A stretch of 36,948 bases of DNA from Acidobacteriaceae bacterium (GCA_003164255.1 PLST01000461.1:4139-41086); one strand, 5' to 3'; shown: positions 620-32,895, counted from the stretch's first letter. A program made the numbers and translations. The notes: a model not told the origin generated them from the sequence alone.

Positions 620-3600
620 ATGAAAAGGTTACGTCTCGTACACCTGGCAGTCTTGATGGTAACGATGTTCCTAGGGCTGACATTTGTTACAAAACTCCAG
701 GCGCAGTCGAAGAGCATCACAGCCTCGCTTTCGGGAACTGTTACCGACCCTACCGGGGCCAGAATCCCGAAAGCCGCGGTGAAGCTAACCAACCCGGAAA
801 GTGGAACTACTCGAAGCGACACCACGTCGGCGCTCGGTGAGTTTAACTTTGCGTTTCTCCCGACGGGCACCTACGTTCTTGAGGCGAGCGCGCCGGGATT
901 CAAGACAACCCGGCAGGAAGGCATCGTTCTGGCTCAGGGGGATTCAGTGAGCATGGGGGTCAGTCTGACGGTCGGCGCCACCGAGCAAGTCACCGTCAAC
1001 ACGACAGGGCCGCTGCTTCAAACTGAGGACTCGAGCATGAGCACCGAGCTCACGAGCCAGCAACTTCAGGAGCTTCCACTCAACCTCCGGAACGACCTCT
1101 CCTTTGCGACATTGAACTCCGCCGTGAACACACAGGGCTACCGGCAGCTGTTGGCATCCGGCGGCAGTGAAGACACAGCCGACCAGGATTACTCCTTCCT
1201 GAATTTCGGTGGCGGCTACTTCGGAACCAACCTATTCCTTCTGGAGGGCGGCTACGACGTGGCCCAAGGCTGGGGAGGAAGCCAGTATGTTCCCGCTCCG
1301 GAAGACACGGACCAGGTGAAAGTAACCAGCTACGAGTTTTCAGCCGAGTACGGATTCAGCACCGGCAATGCAATCAGCATCACTACGAAGGCCGGCACCA
1401 GCAACTACCATTTCCTGGCCGACGAATACTTGCGCAACCAGGACCTGGACGCTAACCTTTATTTCAACAAGCTGGCGGGCTTGCCCAGAGTTGACGATCA
1501 CCGGAACCAGTTTGGAATCGCCGGTGGCGGCCCGCTCTACATCCCGGGCATCTATAAACACAGGGACAAAACCTTCTTTTTCGCCAACTATGAGGGTCTC
1601 CGGCTCAACGGCGGCCTCACCTTCGGCGGCAATGTGCCGACCACTGCCGCGTTGGGTGGTGACTTCTCATCGGAACTGACGACCACTCAGGTCGGAACCG
1701 ATGCGCTGTGCCGGCCTATCTACAAAGGGGCGATCTACAACCCCTATACATCCAGAGCGGTTACGGCTACCTGCGCTACTGCCAATAGCACCGTGGGACA
1801 AACCGTTGAAATCCGCGATCCCTATGCGGGAAATATCATACCCACAACCGGCGTAGGCGCAATCGACGCTCTGGCCAACAAATTCGCCAAGGGTAACTAC
1901 TGGCCGGCGCCAAAGAATCCGGGCGGTGGCTACAACTTCAACACCTCGACGAGCGCGCCGACCTCCTCCAACGAGTGGGGAATCCGCATTGACGAAAACA
2001 TCAACGCAAATAATAAGATCTACGGGCAATTCTCGAATAAGCACGAGGGAAAGGTGCAAACGGGCGCCTTTTACGGAAACGATATTGCCGGGCCCTACGT
2101 GTTTGACCCGAACAACCGTATGTTTGGGGTTTTGGGCTATTCTCACGTCTTCAGCCCAACTCTTATCCTCACCACCGACTTGTTTTTCACTCGCTTTGCC
2201 GCGGGGAACGTGGTCCAGGGCTATGGTTTCAAACCTTCGTCGCTCGGGCTGCCGGGCGTTCTCGACACGTGGACACCACAGTTTCCGCAGATTTCGTTCG
2301 GAAACACCTTTAGCGGCCAGGGATCATATGCTCCCCTGGGGGCGACACAAAACTCGGGCGAAGCCACCTTCCCTGAGAATAATGGCAGCCTGAACGCCGA
2401 CCTGAACAAAAGCTTCAAAGCACATTCGGTTTCGATCGGGTATCTGGGCATTTGGCAAACCACAGACGGCGGCAGGTTGACCCCAACTGTAATGAATTTC
2501 AGCGTCCCCATGACGGCAGGTCCCGACCCGTCGAATCCGGCGACATCAACAAACGGAGACGGGCTTGCATCCTTCCTGGCGGGCGCCGGCAACTCTGGGG
2601 TCGGCTCGGCTGGAACCACTGGCTACACCGCGTTTGCGGCGACGACCAATTACCTGCACGGAATGTACGTCCAGGACGACTGGAAAGCCAACCGGAAGTT
2701 GACGTTGAACCTCGGCTTCCGTTATGAAATCCAGATGCCGGCTACGGCACGGCATAATCAACAGGCGTACTTCGATTTCCACGCTATCAACCCGATCAGC
2801 GCGGCGACGGGGATTCCGGTTACTGGGGAAATCGTCTACAACACTCCGGGGAACCGCGGTCTCTATCAAAAGAACTTGAACGACCTAGCGCCCCGCGTGG
2901 GCTTTACGTACGCCATCTTGCCGAAGCTGGTGATGCGCGGTGGCTACGGCTGGTATTACGCCAGAAACTGGTATGGCGGTTCCGGTCCGGACCCGGGATA
3001 CTCGACCTCGACAGCCTGGACTTCTTCGCCCGACGGGATCACGGTGACGACGCCGCTCGCGCAGGCATTCCAAACTGGACTTGTGCCGGTGACCGGGAAC
3101 GCGCTGGGAAGCCTGACCGGCGTTGGTCAGGGTGGCGGCGGCGTGAATCCATTCCGTCCCGATCCTCTTACCAAGGAGTTCGCCTTTGGGCTCCAATACG
3201 CCTTCACGGCCAACGACGTGCTGGATGTTGCCTACGTCGGAGGCCGCGGGTCGCGCATTACGATCGGCGGCATGAACTACGGCCAGCTGAATCCAAGCTA
3301 TCTTTCCCAGGGTTCGGCGCTGAACGCCTCGGCGGGCACCAACCCGTATGCCCATGCGTTGAGTTCCCTGGGACTTACTGCTATGGCTTGCCCGTGGACG
3401 GTCGCGCAGTCCCTGATGCCGTATCCGGAGTTCTGCGGGGGCGCCTCAGCCACAGACGAGCCCGTCGGAATCAACAACTACAACGCATTGCAGGCAAATT
3501 TCAAGCATCGTTTCGGGGCCGGCCTGATCCTCACAGCCTCCTACACGTACTCGAAGTTCCTGTCTGACGTTGCCGGACCGGAGGAATGGGGATCGGTCAA

Positions 3601-4255
3601 CGGCGATACCGGCGGCTCCGGTATTCGCAATTACTACAACCTGAAAGCCGATTGGACGGTCGACGGCGAGGATATTCCTGAATCGCTGGTTTTGAACTAT
3701 GTGTATGAACTGCCGTTTGGCCGGGGCAAGACGATTGGCAGCGGCATGAACAGGGCTGAGGATGCAATTGTGGGCGGCTGGCAGTTCTCGGGCATTACCA
3801 CCGTGCAGAGCGGTTTCCCGATGTCGATCGGCCCCAACGGGAACAGCTCAACCGTCTTTGGCGGCAGCCAACATGCAAACCTGACCGGGGCGCCATTCAG
3901 GACCGGCAGCTGCGGCAACGGCAAGCCCGGTAATCCGGTCATTTCTGTGGGAACGAAGTATTGCTTCTTTAACCCGGCGGCCTTTACACCGCCGCCCGCA
4001 TACACCTTCGGCACCGGACCACGCTACTATTCCAATTTGCGGGCACCGAGATACGTGGACGAAGATCTGACACTAGGGAAGTGGTTCAACCTCGTGGAAG
4101 GATTCAAGCTGCAGTTCGCGGTCCAGATGTTCAACGCTTTCAACCACCCCAATTTCGGTATACCGGACTCCGGCGTCGGCGATGGAACTATGGGTGAGAG
4201 TTCGTCCACGCAGGGAGCGAGAGAGATGCAGGGCGTACTGAAGGTCACCTTTTAG
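620..4255 (+). CDS. TonB-dependent receptor, Oar-like
   Basis: Outer-membrane receptor expected to take up a large substrate, here probably an oligosaccharide, using TonB energy. I chose the ATG at 620 because GGAGG lies about 5 bases upstream and a clear signal peptide follows, ending near LQAQ at residue 29; an in-frame ATG at 584 lacks this. The protein is 1,211 residues. Residues about 30-130 form a carboxypeptidase-regulatory-like domain (SGTVTDPTGARIPKAAVKL ... GFKTTRQEG), followed by a plug around 140-260 and a long barrel. Barrel motifs include YVQDDWKANRKLTLNLGFRY, VYELPFGRGKT, MFNAFNHPNFG and a C-terminal phenylalanine (VLKVTF). It heads a plus-strand run whose next gene, a TPR protein, starts 13 bases after its stop. 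The family is large in Acidobacteriota; the exact ligand cannot be read from sequence. Confidence 0.93.
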   Translation: MKRLRLVHLAVLMVTMFLGLTFVTKLQAQSKSITASLSGTVTDPTGARIPKAAVKLTNPESGTTRSDTTSALGEFNFAFLPTGTYVLEASAPGFKTTRQEGIVLAQGDSVSMGVSLTVGATEQVTVNTTGPLLQTEDSSMSTELTSQQLQELPLNLRNDLSFATLNSAVNTQGYRQLLASGGSEDTADQDYSFLNFGGGYFGTNLFLLEGGYDVAQGWGGSQYVPAPEDTDQVKVTSYEFSAEYGFSTGNAISITTKAGTSNYHFLADEYLRNQDLDANLYFNKLAGLPRVDDHRNQFGIAGGGPLYIPGIYKHRDKTFFFANYEGLRLNGGLTFGGNVPTTAALGGDFSSELTTTQVGTDALCRPIYKGAIYNPYTSRAVTATCATANSTVGQTVEIRDPYAGNIIPTTGVGAIDALANKFAKGNYWPAPKNPGGGYNFNTSTSAPTSSNEWGIRIDENINANNKIYGQFSNKHEGKVQTGAFYGNDIAGPYVFDPNNRMFGVLGYSHVFSPTLILTTDLFFTRFAAGNVVQGYGFKPSSLGLPGVLDTWTPQFPQISFGNTFSGQGSYAPLGATQNSGEATFPENNGSLNADLNKSFKAHSVSIGYLGIWQTTDGGRLTPTVMNFSVPMTAGPDPSNPATSTNGDGLASFLAGAGNSGVGSAGTTGYTAFAATTNYLHGMYVQDDWKANRKLTLNLGFRYEIQMPATARHNQQAYFDFHAINPISAATGIPVTGEIVYNTPGNRGLYQKNLNDLAPRVGFTYAILPKLVMRGGYGWYYARNWYGGSGPDPGYSTSTAWTSSPDGITVTTPLAQAFQTGLVPVTGNALGSLTGVGQGGGGVNPFRPDPLTKEFAFGLQYAFTANDVLDVAYVGGRGSRITIGGMNYGQLNPSYLSQGSALNASAGTNPYAHALSSLGLTAMACPWTVAQSLMPYPEFCGGASATDEPVGINNYNALQANFKHRFGAGLILTASYTYSKFLSDVAGPEEWGSVNGDTGGSGIRNYYNLKADWTVDGEDIPESLVLNYVYELPFGRGKTIGSGMNRAEDAIVGGWQFSGITTVQSGFPMSIGPNGNSSTVFGGSQHANLTGAPFRTGSCGNGKPGNPVISVGTKYCFFNPAAFTPPPAYTFGTGPRYYSNLRAPRYVDEDLTLGKWFNLVEGFKLQFAVQMFNAFNHPNFGIPDSGVGDGTMGESSSTQGAREMQGVLKVTF

Positions 4256-4268
4256 GGTTCCTATATCC

Positions 4269-6203
4269 ATGCAAAGGACCGTCCTTGCTCTCTGCCTTAC
4301 GGTCGCGCTCACGAATTCAGCCGTGAGCGCGGTCGTAAGTGCGCAAGAGCCTGCACAAACTCTTCAACCCGTCCTGGCTGGCGCCCAAGCGGCCCAGTCC
4401 AGGGGGGATTTTCAAGCTGCGGCGGATGCATACCGGAAAGCCACCGAGGTTGCACCCTCGATTCCGCAACTGTGGGCCAATCTGGGCCTCATGGATCACC
4501 AACTGGGGAAGTCACCTGAAGCGATTGAAGCCTTCAGGAAAGCGGCCGAGCTGGACTCGTCTCTATTTGTTCCGCAGCTCTTTCTCGGCATCGAGTACCT
4601 CGATGCCAAGAATCCAGCAGCAGCTCTGCCATATCTGAAACGTGCCGTGACGATCAATTCCAAGGATGTGCAGGCTGCACTTTCCCTGGGCAGCACGTAT
4701 TCCATGCTGGATCGCGGCAGTCAGGCTGCCGAGTCCTTTTGGAATGCAACGGAGATTGCCCCGAACAACGGAAGTGCATGGCTTGGCCTCGGGAGAGCGT
4801 ACCTGCAGCAGGTTGAAAGCGACGCGCGTCTTATGACTTCAACTTACAAACATTCACCGTACGTCGTTCTGCGGACCGCGGAGACTCTGGCCGAACAGGG
4901 CAAGCTGGTTGACGCGGAGAGCGCCTACAAGGCCGCGATCGCGTTTCCGGCACCGGCGCCGTGTGCTCATGCAGAGTTCGGGATTGCGCTGCTTCGGGAA
5001 AAGAAGATCGCAGAAGCGCGCGAACAGTTCGAAGCGGAGGCTCGGACGGAAGAACACTGCAGACTAGCGTCGATAGGCAATGCTGTAGCGGCTGCTACAG
5101 AAGGGAAACCGGAGGAGGCCGTCAAAGCGCTCGCAGCGATTGCCGCGAACGATCCCAGATTCATTGAATCAAATCTGTATCTGTTCCGCGATGCTTTATC
5201 GGCAGACCAGGCACGATCAATGGCCGATCTGGCACGGATGCAACAGAGCGACGAAGGGTCTTCAGCCGATTTCGGCACTGTAGTTGAGCAGGCGCTTGTT
5301 TCCGATGTGCAGATCGCGGCGGGAATTGATGAGGCGGAAGCGGCTCAAGGGACGCGACCCGCATCGGCGGCAGCACGGACACTTTACCTTGCCGGGAAGT
5401 ACACAGCCTGCGATCGGGCCCTGATGCCGGCGCTGGAAAAGCTGGACAGCGCGCAACTACAACTGCTTGCATCCTGCGCGTATTACACTGGCGACTTCCT
5501 CTCGGTTTCAAAGGTCGCTAAAAGGCAGAAAGCAAATCCAGCCACATTGCTGCAAGGTTTGTACTGGGAGACGAAGGCCGATCAGAAACTGGCGATTGCC
5601 TCGTTGACTCGAGCGGGCGAGATTGACCCCGACTCGCCGCGGATGCATGTCTTGACGGGAGATGTGTTTCGCCAGAAGCGGCGCTGGAGCGAGGCGGAGG
5701 CGGAATATCGAAAAGCTCTTGCCATCGATCCCGCGAGCCACGGAGCGCGGCTGAACCTTGGGATTGTGCTGTTCAGTGAACTGAAGACAGATGAAGCCTT
5801 CACGATTGCCAAGTCACTGCTCGCGGAGGCACCGGAAGACCCTGAGGCGAACCTGCTCGCCGGAGAGATTCTGGTGCTGGACCACAAGTTTGAAGAGGCC
5901 GAGCCATACCTAACCCATTGCCAAAACCTTGCTCAGGAGTTCGTTCCGTATCTTCATATTCTGCTAGGGCAGGTGTATGCGGAAACGAATAGGGTTCCAG
6001 AGGCCATCTCGGAGTACAAGCTGGGTCTCGTAAGCGATGAGAATGGCGGACTCCACTACCAACTGGCGCGTCTTTATCAGAAGACCGGGGATACAAAGGC
6101 AGCGGCAGAAGCTTTGCAGGTTTCGCAGCGGTTGCGAAAGCATTGGGACGATCGCGCAAGCATTGTCCTTCAACAGTCGGCGACAGACATCAGTCATCAA
6201 TAG
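4269..6203 (+). CDS. Exported TPR-repeat protein
   Basis: The protein has 644 residues. A signal peptide (MQRTVLALCLTVALTNSAVS ...) ends near VVSAQ at about residue 26, so it acts outside the cytoplasm. TPR units are plain at about 40-175, for example AYRKATEVAPSIPQLWANLG and AFRKAAELDSSLFVPQLFLG, and again at about 440-630 (EYRKALAIDPASHGARLNLG). The middle is helical with weaker repeats. No catalytic motif is visible. It follows the receptor by 13 bases and is probably co-transcribed. A TPR protein directly behind a receptor recalls the SusC/SusD pair, since SusD is itself rich in TPR-like helices; that role is inference, as no lipoprotein cysteine or SusD motif is seen. A weak ribosome-binding site suggests translational coupling. 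Confidence 0.85.
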   Translation: MQRTVLALCLTVALTNSAVSAVVSAQEPAQTLQPVLAGAQAAQSRGDFQAAADAYRKATEVAPSIPQLWANLGLMDHQLGKSPEAIEAFRKAAELDSSLFVPQLFLGIEYLDAKNPAAALPYLKRAVTINSKDVQAALSLGSTYSMLDRGSQAAESFWNATEIAPNNGSAWLGLGRAYLQQVESDARLMTSTYKHSPYVVLRTAETLAEQGKLVDAESAYKAAIAFPAPAPCAHAEFGIALLREKKIAEAREQFEAEARTEEHCRLASIGNAVAAATEGKPEEAVKALAAIAANDPRFIESNLYLFRDALSADQARSMADLARMQQSDEGSSADFGTVVEQALVSDVQIAAGIDEAEAAQGTRPASAAARTLYLAGKYTACDRALMPALEKLDSAQLQLLASCAYYTGDFLSVSKVAKRQKANPATLLQGLYWETKADQKLAIASLTRAGEIDPDSPRMHVLTGDVFRQKRRWSEAEAEYRKALAIDPASHGARLNLGIVLFSELKTDEAFTIAKSLLAEAPEDPEANLLAGEILVLDHKFEEAEPYLTHCQNLAQEFVPYLHILLGQVYAETNRVPEAISEYKLGLVSDENGGLHYQLARLYQKTGDTKAAAEALQVSQRLRKHWDDRASIVLQQSATDISHQ

Positions 6204-6313
6204 GGTTCCGAAAGATCGCGAGTTGGAATTGCTTGAATAAGAGTTGATCAGGATTGATCGAGGAAGGGAACAAGCTTGCTTGCCGGGTGAGCAAAGCATC
6301 ATCGGGTAACCGT

Positions 6314-8971
6314 ATGTTCCATTTTGATTGGTTTAGTTCAAAGTTGACACGGGAGTTCATTTTGATCTCATCAGGTTGTACGAAAGCCGTGCTTGCCGTC
6401 GCAGCGCTCGTATTCTCGGGCTCGACACTTTCTTATTGCGCTGGCAATGAGATACGTTCGTTCGAACGAAACGCCAATGGCGCAACTCTGTACGCAGACG
6501 GGGGCGCCTTACGCATCACCGTATGCTCGGATCGGATTGTCCATGTGGTTGCCAGCCCCGCTCGAGAGATTCCGGTTGCGATTGTGCCCGCGGTGATTGG
6601 CGAGTGCAACGACACTCAGTTCAGAATTGAGTCCAACAAGTCAAAGATCTCGGTTCGCACTGCAGCTCTCGAAGTGAGCGTAGACCGTGCAACGGGCGCC
6701 GTCCGCTTCCTCACAGTTGACGGTAAGACGATACTTAGCGAGCCGGTAAGTGGGGGAAGAAAGCTGACCCCGGAAACGATTCAAGGCGTCTCCACATTCC
6801 AGGTGCAGCAGGCGTTTATGTCGCCCGCCGATGAGGCGCTCTATGGTCTCGGCCAGCACCAGGAGGGAATCTTCAACCTGCGAGAGCTTCCGCTTCGTTT
6901 GCAGCAAGCCAATACGAATATTTCTATTCCTGTTTTGGTGTCGACCAAAGGCTATGGGCTGCTTTGGAACAACGCGTCGTTGACGGACTTCAATACGGCC
7001 GACGAACCGATTACGTTGAATGCCGCGACAGGCGAAGGGACATTCAGAACAGGTGCGGCGGGAGAGTATGGATTTTTGCTGATCGGGAACCGAAGGAGCA
7101 AGCTGCGCCTTTCTGTCGACGACAAGGCGATCATCGATATCAACAATATGTGGGTTGCAGATTCTGCCAGCGCTAAGATCAGGCTAGAGGCGGAAACAGA
7201 CTACAAGATTTCGGCTCAAACTGGCGGCAATACCAGTCTGTTTGTGCGCCCTCCTTCCGCGACTACTGAATTTCGTTCTGAGGCCGGTGGAGCGGTGGAC
7301 TACTACTTCTTCTACGGGCCAGAGCTGAACCAGGTGATTGCAGAGTATCGCCAGATGACCGGTGCTGCTCCGCTGCTACCTCAATGGGCATATGGCTTTT
7401 GGCAGTGCAGGGAGCGGTACTCAAGCCAGCAACAGATTCTGGATACGGCCGCGGAGTTTCGCACGCGCAAGATTCCAGTCGATGTAATTGTTCAGGATTG
7501 GCAGTATTGGGGCAAGTATGGGTGGAATGCGTTGCGCTTCGACGAACGGTATTATCCCGAGCCGGCGCAGCTGATGACCCAGCTGCACGAAGAAGATATT
7601 CATCTTGTGGCTTCAGTGTGGGCGAAGTTTGGAACCGAGACCGCAGTCGATCAGGATATGAAGAAAGAGCATCTGATGCTGGCGTCAGCGAATGGCCCTC
7701 GGGAACCCGGAGAGGGACAAGCAAAAGAGGATTGGGTTGACCTTTTCAATCCGAAGGCACAGAAGATGTTCTGGTCTGAGCTGAATCGCGGCCTGTTTCA
7801 CGACGGACTGGACGGATGGTGGTTGGACGCCTCAGAGCCCGAAGGGGACCCGCTCAAAGGAGCGCCAACATTTCTAGGTCCCGGAGAACTTGTACGCAAT
7901 GCGTATCCGCTTTATGAAACCACAGCAGTTTATGACGGACAGCGCGCTGCCGATGACCGGAAGCGCGTCGTGATTCTCACGAGGTCCGCGTTTACCGGCC
8001 AACAGCGCAACGGGACTATCTCGTGGTCGGGCGATATCTCAGCGAACTGGGAGACACTCCGCAGGCAGATCCCGGCAGGGCTGAGCTTCAGCATGTCGGG
8101 GATGCCCTACTGGACCACAGACATTGGCGGCTTCTTCCGTCCGCGGGACCAATACACTTCGGACGCCTATCACGAGCTTCTCATCCGGTGGTTTCAGTTC
8201 GGTGCTTTCAGTCCCATCTTTCGAGTTCACGGCTACCAATCGGAAACCGAAATGTGGAAGTACGGCCCCCAGGTCGAAGGAATCCTGAAGGAATTCGATG
8301 AGCTTCGTTACCGGCTCCTGCCCTACACGTACTCAACTGCTTGGGGAGTCACTAACCGCGGAGCGACGATGATGAAGGCTCTGCCTTTCGTCTATCCAAG
8401 TGATCAGTCCTTGAGAGAAGTCAGCGATCAATTCTTATTTGGCGATTCGCTTCTGATCAATCCAGTAACAGAGCCCAACGTGACGACTCGTAGAGTCGTC
8501 CTCCCTGCGGGCAGTGATTGGTTCGACTTCTGGAGTGGTCAGAAATATCACGGGGGACAAACGATGGTTGCAGATGCCCCGTTGGACAAGATGCCCATTC
8601 TGGTAAGGGAGGGAAGCATTGTTCCTCTCGGGCCCAACATTCAGTACGCTGCTGAAAGTCATGATCCGATTGAACTCCGCATCTACGGCGGCAAGGATGC
8701 CGACTTCCAACTATACGAAGACAGCGGAGACGGATACGCCTACGAGCGTGGGGAACGAGCGACGATAAACCTGCACTGGAATGACAAAACGCGCGAACTA
8801 ACCATCGGTGATCGGAACGGTTCGTTTTCCGGATTGCACGCCAAAATACATCTTAATGTCGCACTGGTCCGGCAAAACCATGGAACAGGAATAGCGGCAG
8901 AGAAATCATTTGACAGTTCGGTGGTCTATGAGGGACATCGGATGACCGTTGGGCTGAAGACAGTAAATTGA
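6314..8971 (+). CDS. GH31 alpha-glycosidase (alpha-xylosidase-like) with PA14-like insert
   Basis: Retaining glycoside hydrolase acting on terminal alpha-linked xylose or glucose. From the ATG at 6314, residues 30-200 form the N-terminal beta-sandwich (ALYGLGQHQEG is the usual GH31 motif). Residues about 237-311 are a PA14-like insert (GEYGFLLIGNRRSKLRLSVD). The barrel follows, with nucleophile D505 in WWLDASEPE and acid/base D574 in SWSGDI, then GMPYWTTDIGGF and RWFQFGAFSPIFRVHG. The C-terminus has a DUF5110-like sandwich (FQLYEDSGDGYAYE). PA14-bearing GH31 enzymes include xyloglucan alpha-xylosidases, which favours that activity. The start is uncertain: the frame is open from a TTG at 6254, and a TTG at 6362 has GGGAG 6 bases upstream and gives a compact signal peptide. 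It is exported in either of the later cases. It lies in the same run as the receptor and TPR genes. Confidence 0.9.
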   Translation: MFHFDWFSSKLTREFILISSGCTKAVLAVAALVFSGSTLSYCAGNEIRSFERNANGATLYADGGALRITVCSDRIVHVVASPAREIPVAIVPAVIGECNDTQFRIESNKSKISVRTAALEVSVDRATGAVRFLTVDGKTILSEPVSGGRKLTPETIQGVSTFQVQQAFMSPADEALYGLGQHQEGIFNLRELPLRLQQANTNISIPVLVSTKGYGLLWNNASLTDFNTADEPITLNAATGEGTFRTGAAGEYGFLLIGNRRSKLRLSVDDKAIIDINNMWVADSASAKIRLEAETDYKISAQTGGNTSLFVRPPSATTEFRSEAGGAVDYYFFYGPELNQVIAEYRQMTGAAPLLPQWAYGFWQCRERYSSQQQILDTAAEFRTRKIPVDVIVQDWQYWGKYGWNALRFDERYYPEPAQLMTQLHEEDIHLVASVWAKFGTETAVDQDMKKEHLMLASANGPREPGEGQAKEDWVDLFNPKAQKMFWSELNRGLFHDGLDGWWLDASEPEGDPLKGAPTFLGPGELVRNAYPLYETTAVYDGQRAADDRKRVVILTRSAFTGQQRNGTISWSGDISANWETLRRQIPAGLSFSMSGMPYWTTDIGGFFRPRDQYTSDAYHELLIRWFQFGAFSPIFRVHGYQSETEMWKYGPQVEGILKEFDELRYRLLPYTYSTAWGVTNRGATMMKALPFVYPSDQSLREVSDQFLFGDSLLINPVTEPNVTTRRVVLPAGSDWFDFWSGQKYHGGQTMVADAPLDKMPILVREGSIVPLGPNIQYAAESHDPIELRIYGGKDADFQLYEDSGDGYAYERGERATINLHWNDKTRELTIGDRNGSFSGLHAKIHLNVALVRQNHGTGIAAEKSFDSSVVYEGHRMTVGLKTVN

Positions 8972-9089: not shown

Positions 9090-10127
9090 ATGCAACAGCA
9101 AGGTGAGGTTGTGGTGTCGGCACGGGAGCTAGTCTCTCCTGCCCTGGTGCCTCAAAGAACGCTTTACACCGGAGCACGAATGCCAGCCGTTGGACTTGGC
9201 ACATTCGGCTCCGATCACGTAACGCCGGATCAAGTAGCTGATGCGGTGCTGGGAGCGGCAGCTGTGGGGTATCGCCACTTTGACTGCGCCTCCGTTTATG
9301 GAAATGAGCGCGAAGTCGGCAGCTCACTTGAGCAGATCATCAAGGGGGGCATCAAACGAGAAGAGCTTTGGGTTACTTCCAAGGTATGGAATGACAAGCA
9401 CAATGGTGATGATGTCATCAATTCGTGTCGCCAGTCGCTAAGAGATCTTCGCCTGGACTATCTTGATCTGTATCTTGTTCACTGGCCGTTTCCTAATTTT
9501 CATCCGCCGCAGTGTGACGTGACCTCGCGCAGTCCCGAGGCCAAGCCTTACATCCACGAAGACTACATGAAGACCTGGCGCAAGATGGAGCAACTGGTCG
9601 ACATGGGCCTGGTGCGCCATATTGGCACCTCGAATATGTCGGTACCGAAGCTGAAGCTGGTTCTACGCGATGCACGCATCAAACCCGCCGCCAACGAAAT
9701 GGAGTTGCACCCGCATTTCCAGCAGTCTGAGCTTTTCAAGTATGTGGTTGCTAACGGTATTGTTCCGGTAGGCTATTGCCCCATCGGATCTCCGGGACGG
9801 CCAGAGCGCGACCGGACACCGGAGGATACGACACCTACACAGGATCCGGTTATTCTCGACATCGCCAGGAGCCACGGCATTAGCCCGGCGAGTGTCTGCA
9901 TCAAGTGGGCTGTGCAGCGCGGGCAGGTTCCGATTCCTTTCTCCGTCAACCACTATCGCGACAACCTTGAATGCGTGACCAAAGACCCGCTTACGGACGA
10001 AGAAATGCGCGCCATTGGCTCCATTGACCGCAACTGCCGCCTGATCAAGGGCCAGGTTTTTCTTTGGAAGGAAGGCCAAACCTGGGAGGCATTGTGGGAC
10101 GTGAATGGCGAAATCACGCCTCCGTAA
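9090..10127 (+). CDS. Aldo/keto reductase
   Basis: NAD(P)H-dependent reductase of sugar aldehydes or ketones, 345 residues, close to the usual length for the family. The catalytic tetrad is complete: D65 (HFDCASVY), Y70, K98 (VTSKVWN) and H131 (YLVHWPF). MPAVGLGTFG near residue 31 is the standard first strand, and IKWAVQRGQVPIPFSVN near residue 270 lies in the cofactor-binding region. There is no signal peptide, so it is cytoplasmic, unlike its exported neighbours. It sits 118 bases after the GH31 gene and 133 bases before the GH29 gene, consistent with reducing a sugar released by that module. Substrate is not predictable from the sequence; xylose or another aldose is a reasonable guess. Confidence 0.9.
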   Translation: MQQQGEVVVSARELVSPALVPQRTLYTGARMPAVGLGTFGSDHVTPDQVADAVLGAAAVGYRHFDCASVYGNEREVGSSLEQIIKGGIKREELWVTSKVWNDKHNGDDVINSCRQSLRDLRLDYLDLYLVHWPFPNFHPPQCDVTSRSPEAKPYIHEDYMKTWRKMEQLVDMGLVRHIGTSNMSVPKLKLVLRDARIKPAANEMELHPHFQQSELFKYVVANGIVPVGYCPIGSPGRPERDRTPEDTTPTQDPVILDIARSHGISPASVCIKWAVQRGQVPIPFSVNHYRDNLECVTKDPLTDEEMRAIGSIDRNCRLIKGQVFLWKEGQTWEALWDVNGEITPP

Positions 10128-12671: not shown

Positions 12672-13314
12672 TTGCACTACTCGAAGCTGATGGGTCGTGC
12701 AGGGTCCGTCGGACTTCGATGTGAAGCACCGCGTGGTCGCCTCAGTGATTTACCACCTGCCCGTCGGGCCCGGCCTCCTCTTCAGTCCTTCGTCGAAAGC
12801 TCTGGATGCGGTGATCGGAGGCTGGGAACTCAGCGCCGTCGCCACCCTCCCGACCGGCGTACCCTACAACGAGAGATACAACGACGACAATGCCAGCACC
12901 AATACCATTGTTGGCGGCACCCAACCGACGAGGCCGAATTACGTTCCTGGCCAACCGTTCGTTCTCGCCAACCGCACGGCCGGATCCAACGGACAATGGG
13001 TGAATCCTGCTGCCTGGCAGGAGCCGGCTCCGGGCTTCCTCGGAACCTCGGCGCGCAACATGCTCTACGGTCCTGGCTACCAACGGTTCGATATGTCTCT
13101 CGACAAGAACTTCAACATGACCTACAACGAGCACCACCAGTTGCAAATCCGATTTGACGCGTTCAACGCATTCAACCACACCAATTTCGGCAACCCGAAC
13201 ACCTTTCTGGACGGCACATCGACACCCGGCAGAATCACGGGTTCCGATGCGCCTTCAGGAAGCGCCAATGGAGGTTCGCGCGAACTGCAGCTAGCCGCCA
13301 GGTACTCGTTCTAG
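12672..13314 (+). pseudogene. Relic of an Oar-like TonB-dependent receptor, C-terminal end only
   Basis: The stretch encodes about 205 residues of the final barrel strands of a receptor, beginning GPSDFDVKHRVV and ending in AARYSF, with the family marker FDAFNAFNHTNFGNPN. About 1,000 upstream residues, including signal peptide, regulatory-like domain and plug, are missing. Just upstream, in another frame, YSKLM (12678-12692) matches the strand that normally precedes this segment, so a frame shift lies between about 12690 and 12700. No good ribosome-binding site precedes the only in-frame start, a GTG at 12697. The frame stays open because decay is recent or the fragment is short. It is best read as what is left after a deletion between receptor paralogues. 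Confidence 0.85.
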
Positions 13315-13666: not shown

Positions 13667-14938
13667 ATGGCGCAAACTACTCGACGGTCCATGTTGAAAG
13701 GAGCAACCCTTTCGGCATTGGGAACACTCTCGACATTCTCGCTCCCCGCTTTGGCGGGAGCCGTGGAAACCAACAGCTCACCGTTTCAGCGGCCGAAGCT
13801 CAAGATCACCGAGGTGCGCACCGCGCAGGTCATCGTTCATGGACCGCAGACGCACATCAGGATTTACACGGATCAAGGCATCTACGGGCAGGGAGAAACC
13901 ACGGACGCCGCTATCGGAACCGCGTCGCTGATCCATAGTTGGCGGCGCGCGCTCATCGGGCGAGATCCGCTCAATGTCGAAGCGATATGGGAGAGGATTC
14001 GCACCCTGGGAATCTTCGCTGGCGCGCAAGGTGGACAGTACATCACAGCCTTGTCTGGCTTGGAAATTGCGTTGTGGGACCTTGCCGGCAAGGCGCTGGA
14101 GTTGCCCGTGTACCAGCTTATGGGCGGCAAGTTCCGCGATAAAGTCCGCATCTATTGCGACTCGGATATGGATGTTCCCATTGGGGAAGAGTCGGACCGA
14201 AAGCTTCCGTGGATCAAGGCGCAAGGCTTTACGGCGATGAAGATCGACCTCGACGATGCAATGGATCCGGCGCGCTTCGATTCCGTGAATTGGACTGCGA
14301 GCAATGGCGAGATCGATCGCATGGTGAAGTGGGTAGCGCACGTGCGGGAGTCGATTCCAGCCAACATGGACCTGGCCTGCGATATGCATGGCCGCTACGA
14401 TGCTCCGACCGGAAAGAAAGTCGCGAAGGCGCTGGAGCCGTTCAGGCTGATGTGGCTGGAAGAGCCTGTTCCCCCCGAAGACATCGACGCGATGGCGGAC
14501 ATCCGGCATTCGACCTCGACCCCCATCGCCTGCGGCGAGAACCTCTACATGCGCTGGGGATACAGGGAATTGTTTGAGAAGCAGGCAGTGGACATCATTC
14601 AGCCCGACTTCCAGAAGGTGGGAGGGCTTGGCGAAGCCCAGAAGGTCGCCAACATGGCGCAAGCCTACTACATTCCAGTCGCGCCGCACTGCGTGGTTTC
14701 ACCGATTGGGGTGATGGCTACCGCTCACGCATGCACCACATACCCGAACTTTCTGGCATGCGAGTGGCACTGGATCAACCACCTCGATACCTGGAAGACG
14801 TTCGTGAAGGAAGGCGAAATCATCATTGATGGTCACGTCACGCCCACGGAGAAGCCCGGCCTTGGCGTGGAGATGGACGAAGATGCCGCGAAGAAGGTTC
14901 AGATTCCGGGAACACCCTGGTTTGAAGCTGAGAAGTAG
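13667..14938 (+). CDS. Tat-exported enolase-superfamily sugar-acid dehydratase (galactonate dehydratase-like)
   Basis: Predicted to dehydrate an aldonate or uronate-derived acid to a 2-keto-3-deoxy acid. The protein has 423 residues. A twin-arginine signal (TTRRSMLKG) and an alanine-rich stretch to about residue 32 mark Tat export, unusual for this superfamily, whose members are normally cytoplasmic. The N-terminal capping domain covers about 43-160 (IYTDQGIYGQGE) and the barrel follows. Metal ligands are D239 (CDMHG), E265 (WLEEPV) and E291 (CGENLY). H241 and H341 (VAPHCV) match the two catalytic histidines of D-galactonate dehydratase, which I use as the closest characterised model. It is first of two dehydratase/RraA pairs, 36 bases before its partner. 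The exact sugar acid is not predictable; gluconate- or mannonate-type acids are alternatives. Confidence 0.88.
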   Translation: MAQTTRRSMLKGATLSALGTLSTFSLPALAGAVETNSSPFQRPKLKITEVRTAQVIVHGPQTHIRIYTDQGIYGQGETTDAAIGTASLIHSWRRALIGRDPLNVEAIWERIRTLGIFAGAQGGQYITALSGLEIALWDLAGKALELPVYQLMGGKFRDKVRIYCDSDMDVPIGEESDRKLPWIKAQGFTAMKIDLDDAMDPARFDSVNWTASNGEIDRMVKWVAHVRESIPANMDLACDMHGRYDAPTGKKVAKALEPFRLMWLEEPVPPEDIDAMADIRHSTSTPIACGENLYMRWGYRELFEKQAVDIIQPDFQKVGGLGEAQKVANMAQAYYIPVAPHCVVSPIGVMATAHACTTYPNFLACEWHWINHLDTWKTFVKEGEIIIDGHVTPTEKPGLGVEMDEDAAKKVQIPGTPWFEAEK

Positions 14939-14974
14939 TTCTTTGAAGATCACCGGTACTTGGGAGAAGAGACG

Positions 14975-15934
14975 ATGCGGAAGATGATTGCAGGTGTGCT
15001 GGCTGGGATGTCCTTGCTGGCGTTCACTCCGCGCCTGACGGCGCAGCAGGAGTTTTTCACGCGGGACGATGTGATCAAATACACTCCTGACTGGCAGGGG
15101 GAAAGGTTTCCGGACGGTCGGCCCAAGGTGCCCGACGACATCCTGGATCGCATGAAGAATGTGACTCTTGAAGAAGCCTGGGCGACCCTACGCAACGCGG
15201 GTTTTGTGCACCAGTATGAAGATGGCTGGTACTCGATCCATCCTGATCAGATCCTGGTGGGCAGGGCGCTGACGGCGGTATGGATGCCGGGCAGGCCCGA
15301 TATTCAAAAGGTGATTGAAGACCAAGGGAAGAAGGACAATCGCCAGGGGGCTACCAACGCGTGGCCTGTGGACATGTTGCAGCCGCGCGATGTGTATGTA
15401 GCCGACCACTTCGGACTCAAAACGGATGGTCCATCGATTGGCGACAACGTAGGCAACGCCATCTATGCGCGATCGGGGAACGGCATCGTTTACGATGGCG
15501 CGGTTCGCGATATCAATGGTCTGAACGAACTGCCGAATTTTACTTCCTTTGTTCGGTTCTACGACCCTTCGCATCATTTTGGAAGTCTCGCCAGCGGAAG
15601 ACTGCTCAACTCGACCATGGTGAGCATCAACGGGCCGACCCGGATCGGACATGCGACGGTGATGCCTGGAGATGTAATTCTGGGACGGAACGGTGGTGTG
15701 CTGTTCATACCGCCGCAGCTAGCGGAGCGGGTTGTCAAAGAGTCGGAAAGCACTCGTCTTGAGGACACGTTCGGACACCAGCGCCTGAGGGAGAAGAAGT
15801 ACACCGCTGGACAGATCGATGCCAAGTGGTCACCGGAAATCGAACAGGACTACCACCAGTGGCTCAAAGAGAATGAGAATCATCTGACCGTACCCAAGGC
15901 CCAGATTGAAGAGATTTTGAAAGAGGCTAAGTAG
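14975..15934 (+). CDS. Exported RraA-like protein, first copy (aldolase-like)
   Basis: The 319-residue protein belongs to the RraA / HMG-CHA aldolase fold. A Sec signal peptide ends near LTAQQ at residue 25. The ATG at 14975 is chosen because GGGAGA lies about 8 bases upstream; a TTG at 14960 would add five residues. The core spans about 85-260: DVYVADHFG, GNAIYARSGNGIVYDGAVRD with R178 and D179, the pair that binds substrate and metal in the class II pyruvate aldolases of this family, and PGDVILGRNGGVLFIPP. Classical members have about 160-230 residues; this one has an extra N-terminal block with GERFPDGRPKVPDD and a C-terminal helical tail. Aldol cleavage of a keto-acid to pyruvate is the preferred guess. 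Ribonuclease E inhibition is excluded by export. The gene pairs with the dehydratase just upstream. Confidence 0.85.
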   Translation: MRKMIAGVLAGMSLLAFTPRLTAQQEFFTRDDVIKYTPDWQGERFPDGRPKVPDDILDRMKNVTLEEAWATLRNAGFVHQYEDGWYSIHPDQILVGRALTAVWMPGRPDIQKVIEDQGKKDNRQGATNAWPVDMLQPRDVYVADHFGLKTDGPSIGDNVGNAIYARSGNGIVYDGAVRDINGLNELPNFTSFVRFYDPSHHFGSLASGRLLNSTMVSINGPTRIGHATVMPGDVILGRNGGVLFIPPQLAERVVKESESTRLEDTFGHQRLREKKYTAGQIDAKWSPEIEQDYHQWLKENENHLTVPKAQIEEILKEAK

Positions 15935-16170
15935 TCGGATCAGGGCCTGGAGGGATCGCCGATGAGGGCGAGTGTCCGGGTCAATGATTGGCAAACGCAC
16001 GCTGTTCATCTGACTATCGAGGCTTTTTTTGAATTTCGGAAACGGGCAACATGTGCAATTGGCAACTTGCGGCGACGGGCCGATCCAATTGAAGAGGGAG
16101 ATCCCACGGCTCTGCCGGAGGATCCTTACTCAATACAACAAGAACGTAGAGCTGAAAGGAAAAAGAGGAA

Positions 16171-17547
16171 ATGTCAGATAAAAGCAGTCTCAACATGAAT
16201 CGCCGTAGTGTTCTCAAGTCTTCGCTGGCCGTACTGGCAGGTGGGGCTCTCAGCCAAGCTGCTGTAGCTGACGCTGCGGAGTCTTCGATCAAGAATGTCA
16301 ATCTGAACTCGAGTCCATCAACTTTAAAGATCACCGACATGCGCTATGCGGTGGTGGTCAAGCCGGGCCCGAGTCCCTGCGTTCTGATCCGCATTGACAC
16401 GAACCAGGGGGTGTATGGCCTGGGCGAAGTGCGGGACATCGCTGGATATCAGTATGCGATGGTGCTCAAGAACCGCATCGTCGGCGAGAATCCGCTGCAG
16501 ATCGACTATCTATTTCAGAAGATTGCCCAGTTTGGAGGGGGAGCGCGGCAGGCGGGCGGCGTTTGCGCCGTGGAGATGGCGCTGTGGGATATTGCCGGCA
16601 AGGTATACAACATCCCAGTCTACCAAATGCTAGGTGGCAAGTGGCGCGATAGCATTCGCATCTATGCCGATACCGAGGAGTCGCCCGAGCCAAGCGAGTG
16701 CGCGGAGCGAGCCAAAGGACGCGTGGCCATGGGGCTCACCTGGCTGAAGATGGATATTGGCATTCGTCTTCTGGAGGGGAAACCCGGGATGGTGATGGAG
16801 CCGGCCGGTCAAAGCAATTGGGAGATGCGCGTTCAGCCACACCCCTTTGTGGCCACCGAGGTTACCGACAAAGGCATCGATCGCCTCTGTGAGTACGTTG
16901 CCGCCGTGCGCGACGCAGTGGGATACGAGATCCCCTTCTCGATCGATCACCTCGGTCACATCGGCGTAAAGTCTGTCATGCGCCTGGCCAAAGCCTACGA
17001 GAAGTTCAACCTCGAGTGGATGGAGGATGTCATTCCCTGGTACTACACCGACCTGCTCAAGGAAATCACAGAGTCGAGCCCGACGCCGATTCTTACGGGA
17101 GAAGACATCTACGAAATCGCCGACTTCGAAAAGCTGTGCAGCAACCACGCGGTCGACAAAATTCATCCCGACCTTGCGACTTCAGGTGGGATCTTGCGGA
17201 CGCACAGAATTGGCGACATGGCGTTTACCTATGGAGTGCCCATGGCGATGCATTTTGCCGGAACGCCGGTGAGCTGCATGGCAAATGTTCACTGCGCAGC
17301 GGCCACGCGCAACTTCCTGGCGCTCGAAAACCATTCGCTCGATGTGCCCTTCTGGCAAGACCTGGTCACGGGCATTGAGAAACCGATCATCAACAAGGGA
17401 TATATCAAGGTGTCGGATACGCCTGGGTTGGGTATCACGCTCAACGACGATGAAGTGAAGCGGCACCTGAAGCCGGGCACAGGATATTTTGAGCCGACTC
17501 CGATGTGGGACGAAGTGCAGTCATTGGACGATGCGCTCTTCAGCTAG
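16171..17547 (+). CDS. Tat-exported enolase-superfamily protein, second and diverged copy
   Basis: The 458-residue protein shares order and fold with the dehydratase at 13667 but is clearly diverged. A twin-arginine signal (MNRRSVLKSS) ends near AVADA. The capping domain (GVYGLGEVRD, VEMALWDIAGK) is followed by a barrel. Expected metal ligands are D259 (SIDHLGH), E285 (WMEDVIPW) and E311 (TGED); H361 lies where the second catalytic histidine is expected. Instead of the usual EEP after strand 4 it has ED-V, and an insertion of about 20 residues near 200-220 (PGMVMEPAGQSNWEMR) lies in the barrel. This points to a different substrate from its neighbour. The start ATG follows AAAGAGGAA. The gene is 236 bases after the first RraA gene and 179 before the second. 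Confidence 0.86.
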   Translation: MSDKSSLNMNRRSVLKSSLAVLAGGALSQAAVADAAESSIKNVNLNSSPSTLKITDMRYAVVVKPGPSPCVLIRIDTNQGVYGLGEVRDIAGYQYAMVLKNRIVGENPLQIDYLFQKIAQFGGGARQAGGVCAVEMALWDIAGKVYNIPVYQMLGGKWRDSIRIYADTEESPEPSECAERAKGRVAMGLTWLKMDIGIRLLEGKPGMVMEPAGQSNWEMRVQPHPFVATEVTDKGIDRLCEYVAAVRDAVGYEIPFSIDHLGHIGVKSVMRLAKAYEKFNLEWMEDVIPWYYTDLLKEITESSPTPILTGEDIYEIADFEKLCSNHAVDKIHPDLATSGGILRTHRIGDMAFTYGVPMAMHFAGTPVSCMANVHCAAATRNFLALENHSLDVPFWQDLVTGIEKPIINKGYIKVSDTPGLGITLNDDEVKRHLKPGTGYFEPTPMWDEVQSLDDALFS

Positions 17548-17726
17548 AAAAGAAGCTTCGAGTAACCAAGGGGGCGAGGCCAAGGCGATCGCAGCGGAAT
17601 CAATCGCTTTGTTTCGACCCCAGGACCTCAGAAAATCGATCTGAATTGATGGTGAGGCAGTCTGGCCGCTGTTGGGCTGGAAATGGGAATGTCTGCAGCG
17701 GGCCAGTGGGGAAGGAGAAGAGATTC

Positions 17727-18680
17727 ATGAAGAAGACAGTCTCGGCAATTTTGTTGGCATGCGCGGTGTTGATGGCGGCTCCTGCGCGCAGCCAGGTGAC
17801 CATGACGCGGGATCAAATACTCTTTTACACATCGGACTGGAAAGGCGAACGCTTCCCGGATGGCCGGCCGAAATTGCCGGATGCGCTGCTAAAACGCGCC
17901 GTGGATATGACGATTGAAGACATTTGGGAGTTCCTGCGTGGCCAGGGTTACAACAATCAATTTGATTCGGGCTGGCAGGCTCTTCATATGGATAAGCCAT
18001 TTGCCGGCCGGGCGCTTACAGCCCAATACATGCCAACCCGTCCCGATATGCTGAAAGCGATTGCCGCGGAAGGCAAAGCAGAAGGACGAATACTGGGCGC
18101 AGGTTCCGGGACCAACAGCTGGCCCATCAGCGAGCTGCAAATCGGCGACGTGTATGTTGCGGACGGCTTCGGAAAGGTCGTCGACGGTACGCTGATTGGC
18201 TCCAACCTGGGCAACGCCGTTGCAGCGCGCACTCATACAGGATTCGTATTTGACGCCGGGATCCGCGATCAGGAAGAGAATCGGGAGATTCCGGATTTCA
18301 ACGGATTCTATCGAGGGTACGATCCCTCTGCCTGGGCCAATATGGGGTTGACCTCGATCAACGCCCCGATTCGCATCGGACGCGCGGTGGTGTTGCCGGG
18401 AGACCTGGTTCTGTGCAAGCCGGAAGGAGTCATTTTTGTTCCGGCAATTCTTGCCGAACAGGCAATCAGCTATGCGGAATTCACCTCTTTGAAAGACGAC
18501 TTCAATTTTGAGCTCAACCGCGAAGGCAAGAACGGAGCTCAATTTGAAGGAGGCTGGACGGCTGAAAAGTATGACGCATTCGCCAAGTGGATCGACGCTC
18601 ATCCTGAGAAGCTGAAGATGGAGCGCAGCGAGTTTGACGCCTTATTGGCGAAGGCAAGATTACCGCGCTCGGCCCACTAG
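17727..18680 (+). CDS. Exported RraA-like protein, second copy
   Basis: The 317-residue protein is a paralogue of the one at 14975, aligning throughout: signal peptide to about residue 22 (PARSQ), then GERFPDGRPKLPDA, GDVYVADGFG, GNAVAARTHTGFVFDAGIRD with R180 and D181, and PGDLVLCKPEGVIFVPA. The ATG at 17727 follows GAAGGAGAAG; the frame is open further upstream to 17505 inside the preceding gene, but the signal peptide fixes the start. The likely role is metal-dependent aldol cleavage or decarboxylation of a keto-acid outside the cytoplasm. DGAVRD of the first copy is DAGIRD here, and the intervening loops differ, which again suggests different substrates. The MFS transporter gene starts 41 bases downstream. 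Confidence 0.85.
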   Translation: MKKTVSAILLACAVLMAAPARSQVTMTRDQILFYTSDWKGERFPDGRPKLPDALLKRAVDMTIEDIWEFLRGQGYNNQFDSGWQALHMDKPFAGRALTAQYMPTRPDMLKAIAAEGKAEGRILGAGSGTNSWPISELQIGDVYVADGFGKVVDGTLIGSNLGNAVAARTHTGFVFDAGIRDQEENREIPDFNGFYRGYDPSAWANMGLTSINAPIRIGRAVVLPGDLVLCKPEGVIFVPAILAEQAISYAEFTSLKDDFNFELNREGKNGAQFEGGWTAEKYDAFAKWIDAHPEKLKMERSEFDALLAKARLPRSAH

Positions 18681-18721: not shown

Positions 18722-20119
18722 ATGTCCATAAGCCAGCTGAAGAAACCCGGTCGCGGTGTGCCCAAGCGCTACCTGCTTGTGTCGTGGGTATTGGTATTGA
18801 GCGCCGTTGCCTTCATGGATCGCACCAATATTTCGATTGCCGGTGTATCGATCTGCCGGGAATTCGGAATAGATAACGCACATCTCGGCTGGATTTTCAG
18901 CGCATTCCTGATCGGCTACGCCTCGTTCCAGATTCCCGGCGGAGTCCTTGCACGCCGCCTTGGTCCGCGCCGTGTAATCGCGATCGGCGTGATATGGTCG
19001 GGGCTCTTTACCGCTCTGACCGCGTCCATTCCGCGGGGCATCCGCGGGGCGCTTTTCCTGCTGGTTCTTATCCGGTTCTCCCTGGCGGCAGGCGAGGCCA
19101 TCACGTATCCGGCGGCAAACCAATTTGTCGAGAGGTGGTTTCCGATTGAAGAGCGAGGCAAGGCCAACGGCATCATCTTTGGCGGCGTCGGGCTCGGATC
19201 GGGACTTACGCCGCCAATCATGACGGCCATCATGTTGCACTACGGGTGGCGCGCTGCATTTTGGTTCAGCGCAGTTGTGGTTTTGCTGGCGGGAACCATA
19301 TGGTACCTGGTAGCACGCGATACGCCGGAAGAGCATCCCTGGGTGCGCGCTGGGGAACTCGAAGTCATCGTCAAGGGCCGCGGCGACGCCGGGAGGCAAG
19401 CGGACAAACTCGCCGTGGCTGCAGCTTCAGGAGCAGAGGGGAAGCGGAGGGTACCGTGGAGCAGAATACTTCGAAGCAAAGAGATTCTCGCCCTGACGGG
19501 AAGCTATTTTACGTTCGGTTACGTGGCCTGGATTTTCTTTAGCTGGTTTTATATCTATCTGGTTCAAGTGCGCGGCCTGAATCTGAAGACCAGCGCGGTC
19601 TACTCCATGTTTCCCTTTATCGCCATGACGCTTGGCTCTCTTACCGGCGGAGTGGCCAGCGACTGGCTCTCGCGCCACATCAGCTTGCGCGCCGGCAGGT
19701 GCTTTCTGCCTGCCTTCGCCTTGGCCTGCACGGCGCTTCTGCTTTCCGTCGGGTCGAGAGCGCACGATGCTCAGACTGCCACTCTTGTTCTCGCGTGTGG
19801 AGCAGGGGCCTTGTATCTGTCGCAGAGCAGCTTCTGGTCGGTCACCGCCGATTTCGCGGGGCAATACTCCGGGGTTGTGTCCGGGACTATGAATACCGGC
19901 TGCCAGTTGGGTGGCGCCGTAACTGCATCGCTCACGCCCATGATTGCCGCTCACTTTGGTTGGGGGGCATCTTTTCTGACTGCGACCGTGCTTGCTGCTC
20001 TGGGCGCAATTGGTTGGCTCATCGTCAATCCCTCGGCGCGGCTCGATGGCCTGGGGCATTCGGCGCCGCGACTGACCCATGTTACCGAACCAATGATCTC
20101 CGCAGGAGCGGACTTATGA
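18722..20119 (+). CDS. MFS transporter, ACS (sugar-acid) family
   Basis: Inner-membrane carrier of 465 residues with the hydrophobic pattern of twelve membrane helices. MDRTNISIAGVSICREFG in helix 1 and ERWFPIEERGKANGI between helices 4 and 5 are typical of the anion:cation symporter family (hexuronate, galactonate, glucarate carriers). LARRLGPRRV is the cytoplasmic loop 2-3 motif. The central loop is at about 205-250. Proton-coupled import of an acidic sugar product is the family function. It lies directly after the second RraA gene and overlaps the next gene by 4 bases (ATGA), so one operon with the dehydratases is very likely. Which acid it carries cannot be read from the sequence. Confidence 0.9.
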   Translation: MSISQLKKPGRGVPKRYLLVSWVLVLSAVAFMDRTNISIAGVSICREFGIDNAHLGWIFSAFLIGYASFQIPGGVLARRLGPRRVIAIGVIWSGLFTALTASIPRGIRGALFLLVLIRFSLAAGEAITYPAANQFVERWFPIEERGKANGIIFGGVGLGSGLTPPIMTAIMLHYGWRAAFWFSAVVVLLAGTIWYLVARDTPEEHPWVRAGELEVIVKGRGDAGRQADKLAVAAASGAEGKRRVPWSRILRSKEILALTGSYFTFGYVAWIFFSWFYIYLVQVRGLNLKTSAVYSMFPFIAMTLGSLTGGVASDWLSRHISLRAGRCFLPAFALACTALLLSVGSRAHDAQTATLVLACGAGALYLSQSSFWSVTADFAGQYSGVVSGTMNTGCQLGGAVTASLTPMIAAHFGWGASFLTATVLAALGAIGWLIVNPSARLDGLGHSAPRLTHVTEPMISAGADL

Positions 20120-23639: not shown

Positions 23640-24230
23640 GTGCAAACTGGGAGCAACAGAGTGGAGCGAACGGTCACGCTGATCGGGCTTGGATTGAAGG
23701 AGGATTATCGGATCGGCATGATCGATATCGTAGACATCAACGCAGACCTGTACGCGTTTGCGGGTCCCGGGCATTGGAACGATCCTGACATGCTGCAGAT
23801 CGGCAATGGTGGCATGACGCCGGTGGAATATCGAACCCAGTTCAGTATGTGGGCCATGATGGCTGCGCCTCTGATGGCGGGCAACGATCTTTCGGCTATG
23901 TCGGAAGATACAAAGTCGATCCTGATGAACAAGGAAGTGATAGCTGTTGATCAGGATCCGCTGGGCGAAGCCGGTCGTCGGGTTTGGCAAAATGGGAATC
24001 TCGAAGTATGGTCACGCAATCTGACTGGTGGGTATCGCGCCGTAGTCTTGTTGAACCGGGGAACGGCGGCCGGCATCATCACCGTGCATTGGGCGGACAT
24101 CGGATACCCTGACTCATTGAATGCCCAGGTTCGCGACCTGTAGAAGGCAAGAGAAATGGGCAGCGTGAAGAGTTATTATACAGCCGAGGTTGCTTCGCAC
24201 GGTGTTGTCATGCTGACAGTCATGCCATAG
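23640..24230 (+). pseudogene. GH27 alpha-galactosidase relic, 5'-truncated, with amber stop
   Basis: The frame encodes the C-terminal part of a GH27 enzyme: FAGPGHWNDPDMLQIGNGGM, YRTQFSMWAMMAAPLMAGND, NKEVIAVDQDPLG and the start of the C-terminal sandwich. The N-terminal half, including the expected catalytic nucleophile segment (KYDWC type), is missing. At 24141-24143 the frame stops with TAG where the family normally has tryptophan (VRDL-W), and the same frame continues with SYYTAEVASHGVVMLTVMP to a second TAG at 24228-24230. This is a TGG-to-TAG change. The gene cannot be functional. It shows that an alpha-galactosidase once stood beside the GH31 and GH29 module or the sugar-acid operon. 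The junction with the transposase tail is at about 23600-23660. Confidence 0.85.
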
Positions 24231-24392
24231 CATCACGAGTCGGCCCACATGCCTTTTCTGTATGACATTGATTTCCAGCGATGCAGCACCTTTGCAGTGC
24301 AGAGGTCGCGGCCGAACCGGAACAGACATCTCGAAACGAAGCAAAGAGAAGTACGGCGGCTCGATTTCAACTCAATCCATCAAGAGGTCACC

Positions 24393-32686: not shown

Positions 32687-32895
32687 ACTACGCAGGGCAG
32701 TTCAATTCAGCCACGAACAAGGCCAATAGCAGGTCGCTTTACAATCCTTATTATCTGAATATCATGCCTAGATTCGGCTTCGCGTATCGTGTCAATCCGC
32801 AGTTGGTTGTGCGCGGAGGCTACGGAGTGACGGACGAAATGGAGTCCACAGGCACGGGCTGCGCATGACGCAAAACCCACCATTCCAGCCATCCT

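Follow-up and report, generated by a model that had tools for sequence, protein, structure and literature searches.

About one in five of the receptors examined in soil Acidobacteriota directly precedes a gene for an exported TPR protein, and this receptor-TPR pairing is not a product of chance. The pair described here lies in the window, by which we mean the whole 36,948-nucleotide stretch of Acidobacteriaceae DNA that was analysed. Our preferred reading, to which we assign a probability of roughly 50%, is that the TPR protein works as a periplasmic accessory to the receptor it is paired with, in a xyloglucan-oligosaccharide uptake operon, docking to that receptor and passing on its cargo. 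The pair and the genes that follow it are arranged in the window as listed below.

620..4255, plus strand: Oar-type outer-membrane receptor with a Sec signal, a CarboxypepD_reg domain, a putative plug-like segment and a PF25183 beta-barrel
4256..4268, plus strand: gap of 13 bases between the receptor stop and the TPR start
4269..6203, plus strand: exported TPR protein of 644 aa with a Sec-type signal without lipobox and two helical TPR blocks
6254..8971, plus strand: GH31 glycosidase with three GH31 domains and DUF5110 (Pfam); the TTG start at 6254 is uncertain
9090..10127, plus strand: aldo/keto reductase (Pfam), also found downstream of GH31 in L118
10225..12609, plus strand: GH29 alpha-L-fucosidase (Pfam)

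The receptor gene opens with an ATG at position 620, closely preceded by a GGGAGG motif, and ends with a TAG stop codon whose last base is 4255. Pfam identified a CarboxypepD_reg (PF13620) N-terminal extension (2.8e-21) and an OMP_b-brl_4 (PF25183) barrel matched over all 838 profile positions (8e-177), and no NCBIfam model matched the receptor. The plug family PF07715 gave no Pfam match in the receptor, even with E up to 1. Alignment showed a TonB-box-like TEQVTV and a conserved ELPLNLRN segment that we infer, from sequence only, to be plug-like. With only 13 bases to the ATG of the TPR gene, the two genes could be co-transcribed and translationally coupled.

The original prediction of an exported, all-helical TPR protein 13 bases past the receptor was borne out by a Sec-type signal, a TPR_16 match (6.8e-31) and an AF2 model. 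Many further TPR families, TPR_Slam among them, also matched the protein in Pfam, and its sole NCBIfam match above the cut-off was a generic TPR domain model. The AF2 model, made from seven sequences, is all-helical (mean pLDDT 83, pTM 0.67), with regular helix pairs throughout that are arranged in two blocks at about residues 26-343 and 365-641 and a low-confidence linker near 328-364 between them. Its fold neighbours in the PDB are protein-protein scaffolds (Ctr9, OGT, Ski3, APC/C and NatA subunits), and a viral fold library returned generic TPR matches only. Conserved cysteines are found at C232, C264, C381 and C403, of which C381 and C403 are invariant across 16 homologues. Conservation was 0.68 at concave helix-A positions and 0.59 at outer helix-B positions, a difference to which no significance is attached; together with the scaffold-type fold neighbours, it counts for a periplasmic accessory. 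The signal itself, MQRTVLALCLTVALTNSAVSAVVSA/QE, can be read directly from the sequence, and its type hints at a periplasmic location. A rule-based reading of 21 paired TPR proteins identified an N-terminal hydrophobic Sec-type segment in 21/21 and a convincing lipobox in 0/21, the one regex match, in the orthologue L245, lying too close to the N-terminus for credibility. Thus, no SusD-like lipid anchor was seen.

In order to determine how often a TPR gene follows a receptor, neighbourhoods were sampled from the window's own genome (5.1 Mb, 632 contigs, 68% complete, 74 PF25183 matches) and from G017 and G119, both from the same family and each assembled as a single contig. Searching the own genome with the window TPR protein gave 18 matches, several of them directly 3' of another receptor. 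ORFs were called with a simple ORF caller, and a pair was defined by a same-strand TPR gene at most 400 bases downstream of the receptor, which leaves L119 (gap 457 bases) outside the count. By this definition, a downstream TPR gene was present at 5/24 receptors in the own genome, 6/25 in G017 and 6/34 in G119, the last two sets being the best-scoring receptors, so that the rate does not come from a random sample. Over the three genomes, the next gene was a same-strand TPR gene at 17/83 receptors and the previous gene at 0/83 (Fisher 3e-6), and the order therefore recurs more than chance would give. The same was seen in G017 against background, where TPR proteins account for 6/25 genes behind receptors versus 3/336 ORFs (0.9%) in twenty evenly spaced 20-kb stretches (Fisher 4e-6).

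TPR proteins are nevertheless common, four genomes of the family having 102-132 TPR_16 matches each, and the pair could reflect chance or a generic operon neighbourhood in a TPR-rich genome. Given the downstream to upstream asymmetry of 17 to 0 among 83 receptors, the background of only 0.9% of ORFs and the fact that several orthologous loci have gaps of 3-7 bases, we consider this highly improbable. The receptors are themselves numerous, with at least 57, 55, 55 and 56 PF25183-class matches in four genomes. Most of those sampled (66/83) have no adjacent TPR gene, and some have an enzyme-like gene directly next instead; the suggestion that acidobacterial receptors generally have this TPR protein as their partner therefore does not hold. 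In a phylum sample, no downstream TPR was seen at the 18 receptor loci with the highest scores; because these are the top Pfam matches and carry flanks of no more than 1.5 kb, the result limits the claim and is an uneven test. Receptor-TPR pairs were present in another family of the phylum, at L233 and L235 of G325. Two TPR-less receptors, in L133 and L155, are directly followed by an exported protein (L133:6755-8653, L155:6737-8593) with a IDRIDPPNWWAEMP-like motif that is putatively neopullulanase-like, and the slot 3' of the receptor may therefore hold an enzyme instead.

Homologues of the window TPR protein with 55-67% identity were found in Acidobacteriaceae and Acidobacterium MAGs, and Terracidiphilus gabretensis has one homologue with 43% identity. 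A TPR homologue of that species, in L122, is accompanied by a receptor on the opposite strand. The receptor-TPR-GH31 order is kept in 11 other loci, namely L119 (= L089), L090, L118, L120, L121, L169, L183, L239, L241, L245 and L250, and GH31 is the conserved third gene in related loci. A restriction of the TPR protein to GH31 loci was rejected, as receptor-TPR pairs exist with other third genes. FG-GAP/UnbV_ASPIC proteins neighbour the pair in L157, L158 and L161, FG-GAP proteins only in L181 and L108, and the third gene of L104 is without a Pfam match; the TPR subfamily follows the kind of locus, GH31 versus FG-GAP/UnbV_ASPIC. A module of receptor, exported TPR protein(s) and FG-GAP protein recurs at L157:6934-9926, L158:6766-9434, L161:953-3929 and L181:6833-11001, the first three with the UnbV_ASPIC domain, which has 9-20 matches per genome. 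Tandem TPR genes were also observed behind sister receptors (L144:6992-9783 and L181:6833-9847), the second encoding 586 aa in both.

Some close relatives of the TPR protein (L117, L122, L240, L242 and L243) have no same-strand receptor directly upstream, which counts against a periplasmic accessory of the receptor. The TPR protein could instead be a scaffold for GH31 or a periplasmic sensor, with the receptor a mere operon neighbour: L117 has TPR-GH31 with no same-strand receptor directly before it, L242 shows the order receptor-GH31-TPR, and in L144 the receptor and two TPR genes are followed by a histidine-kinase gene. However, the third genes beside the pair are varied or absent in L104, L235, L246, L248, L251, L157 and L158, and the receptor is therefore the more constant neighbour of the TPR protein, which makes a role tied to enzyme or regulation unlikely.

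The history of the pair was examined on a tree of 88 receptors. A single clade of TPR-paired receptors was rejected, with 15 label changes for 20 paired rows. Shuffled labels gave a mean of 18.1 changes, and 17/500 shuffles were as low as the observed tree; small clades are paired, and the whole pattern is scattered. Sister receptors tend toward sister TPR proteins (Mantel rho 0.32; 8/2000 permutations as high), as in L054/L165, L132/L161, L144/L181 and the GH31 clade. On the basis of the scattered tree and the matching sisters, pairing has been gained or lost many times, and the pair, where present, tends to pass on as a unit.

The genes downstream of the pair bear on the likely cargo. The closest solved relatives of the GH31 protein are the alpha-xylosidases 7kmp, 5jou and 2xvg, and the enzyme is accordingly predicted to be of the alpha-xylosidase type. 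The fucosidase shares one cluster with the receptor, and L121 contains two GH29 genes after GH31. The gene cluster thus looks as if it were built for plant xyloglucan use, and the combination of GH31, GH29 and a TonB-type receptor resembles the xyloglucan locus of Cellvibrio (PMC4285296). No endo-xyloglucanase or beta-galactosidase was seen among the genes scanned, on a contig that continues and in a genome that is 68% complete.

Further along the window, a 205-aa frame at 12697-13314, between the fucosidase and a sugar-acid dehydratase, matches only the PF25183 barrel end (658-838) and is either what is left of another receptor or a join made in assembly. At 13667-18680, two genes for sugar-acid dehydratases of the enolase superfamily are interleaved with two for RraA-like aldolases, and an MFS transporter gene comes next at 18722-20119, a set that looks like sugar-acid (possibly fuconate) breakdown downstream of the fucosidase. 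A short frame at 23640-24143 resembles, by eye, the C-terminal part of a GH27-type alpha-galactosidase, the N-terminal part of which is in no ORF. The cluster encodes a second TPR-bearing protein at 24249-27656, a 1135-aa protein with DUF5107 and a TPR region. A second PF25183 receptor at 30566-34107 is interrupted near 32640-32690, where a frame change or stop divides it into two partial matches (profile 1-408 and 408-838), by assembly error or as a pseudogene.

The original prediction had proposed the TPR protein as a substitute for SusD. SusD is a surface lipoprotein that acts as a surface-anchored lid, and its fold combines TPR helices with large insertions. To act as such a lid over substrate, a protein has to be exposed at the cell surface, for which a lipid anchor is the usual means. 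The claim that no SusD homologue is present was confirmed across the bacterial family, own genome included, with PF07980 found in 0/150 genomes and PF14322 in 0/120, both profiles matching in Bacteroides as a positive control. SusD families were also not among the Pfam matches of the window TPR protein or of other receptor-linked TPR proteins, and SusD was not among the 50 best PDB fold matches of the TPR model.

As the receptor-TPR order is recurrent and SusD is absent, the TPR gene occupies the position that SusD has in Bacteroidota loci. This part of the proposal stands, and the conserved, co-inherited order of the pair together with the all-helical TPR fold would also suit a TPR protein at the cell surface that contacts the receptor from outside and captures glycans in the manner of SusD. 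The rest is not supported: whereas SusD proteins are surface lipoproteins, a convincing lipobox is lacking in all the paired TPR proteins, no SusD profile match or top-50 fold was found, and most receptors have no TPR gene. In addition, the locus of a proteobacterial xyloglucan receptor in Cellvibrio lists no SusD (PMC4285296). We therefore judge such a surface-exposed substitute to be decidedly unlikely. Without SusD features, the TPR protein is more likely a helper acting at the inward-facing side of the membrane than a SusD replacement. A broader version, which we regard as doubtful, is that the part played by SusD was taken over independently in Acidobacteriota by a family of soluble TPR proteins, each of which would bind the glycan handled by its receptor and gate that receptor, from the extracellular side or, mirroring SusD, from the periplasm; this family would span the substrate classes of the xyloglucan-type GH31 and the FG-GAP/UnbV_ASPIC loci.

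The periplasmic accessory is supported by the recurrent order, the co-inherited pairs, the Sec signal without lipobox and the adjoining GH31. In the mechanism that we propose, the signal is cleaved and the TPR protein, judging by signal type, would remain in the periplasm as a soluble two-block superhelix. The superhelix may then dock at the periplasmic face of the receptor, at the plug or the CarboxypepD_reg domain, and could tether the incoming oligosaccharide or hand it to a periplasmic enzyme or protein encoded alongside. The TPR protein would thus act on the side of the membrane opposite to that of SusD. In Cellvibrio, which has a homologous kind of locus, oligosaccharides are saccharified in the periplasm after TonB-dependent import (PMC4285296).

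A periplasmic-type signal and one TPR gene immediately downstream of each receptor gene would also be expected of a chaperone for receptor folding or insertion, or for the export of proteins encoded alongside, that makes no contact with substrate. TPR proteins take part in the assembly of outer-membrane proteins and of pili, and the weak family or PDB matches of the TPR protein include PilW and PilF. However, four fifths of related receptors have no dedicated TPR gene, and a TPR subfamily that changes with the kind of locus is not what such a biogenesis or quality-control role suggests; we therefore hold it as a tentative possibility only.

No description of this TPR protein paired with a receptor was found when an open-access library was searched in full text. 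Soils are rich in Acidobacteriota, whose genomes each encode dozens of such receptors, yet in the sampled family SusD is absent. A TPR protein that recurs as a receptor partner would offer a first entry point to how cargo is selected by these receptors and handed on, and the operon context of the window pair suggests xyloglucan oligosaccharides as a testable substrate.

Among known systems, SusC/SusD of Bacteroidota shares the arrangement of a receptor with a CarboxypepD-type N-terminus, then an exported helical protein and then glycosidases. Unlike SusD, the window protein is a pure TPR superhelix without SusD profile match or lipobox, and only about one in five of the sampled receptors has the TPR partner. 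In the BcsC, PgaA and Slam export systems, a periplasmic TPR superhelix likewise serves an outer-membrane barrel, and BcsC is a weak PDB match of the TPR protein. In those systems, however, the TPR part belongs to an export machine and is fused to the barrel, whereas the window TPR protein is encoded on its own next to a receptor of the import type, and the resemblance is one that TPR proteins share in general. Myxococcus Oar, of a TonB-dependent transporter subclass, has the same CarboxypepD_reg extension (PF13620) ahead of the barrel and is needed for secretion of the protease PopC. It differs in that the paper on PopC secretion mentions no TPR partner and the window operon encodes sugar enzymes; for this comparison, Pfam finds no plug PF07715 in the window receptor. 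The Cellvibrio japonicus locus has a GH31 alpha-xylosidase, an alpha-L-fucosidase and a TonB-dependent receptor as in the window, but no TPR protein is among its listed genes, its fucosidase is GH95 rather than GH29, and it has GH35 (PMC4285296). Finally, in TatT-TatP of the Treponema TRAP system, a TPR protein is encoded with the transporter and contacts the substrate-binding component (PMC5812351). Although TatT is a lipoprotein that works with an inner-membrane transporter and its ligands are probably hydrophobic, TatT of the TPAT transporters sets a precedent, in that a TPR protein serves there as a dedicated part of a transporter (PMC5812351).
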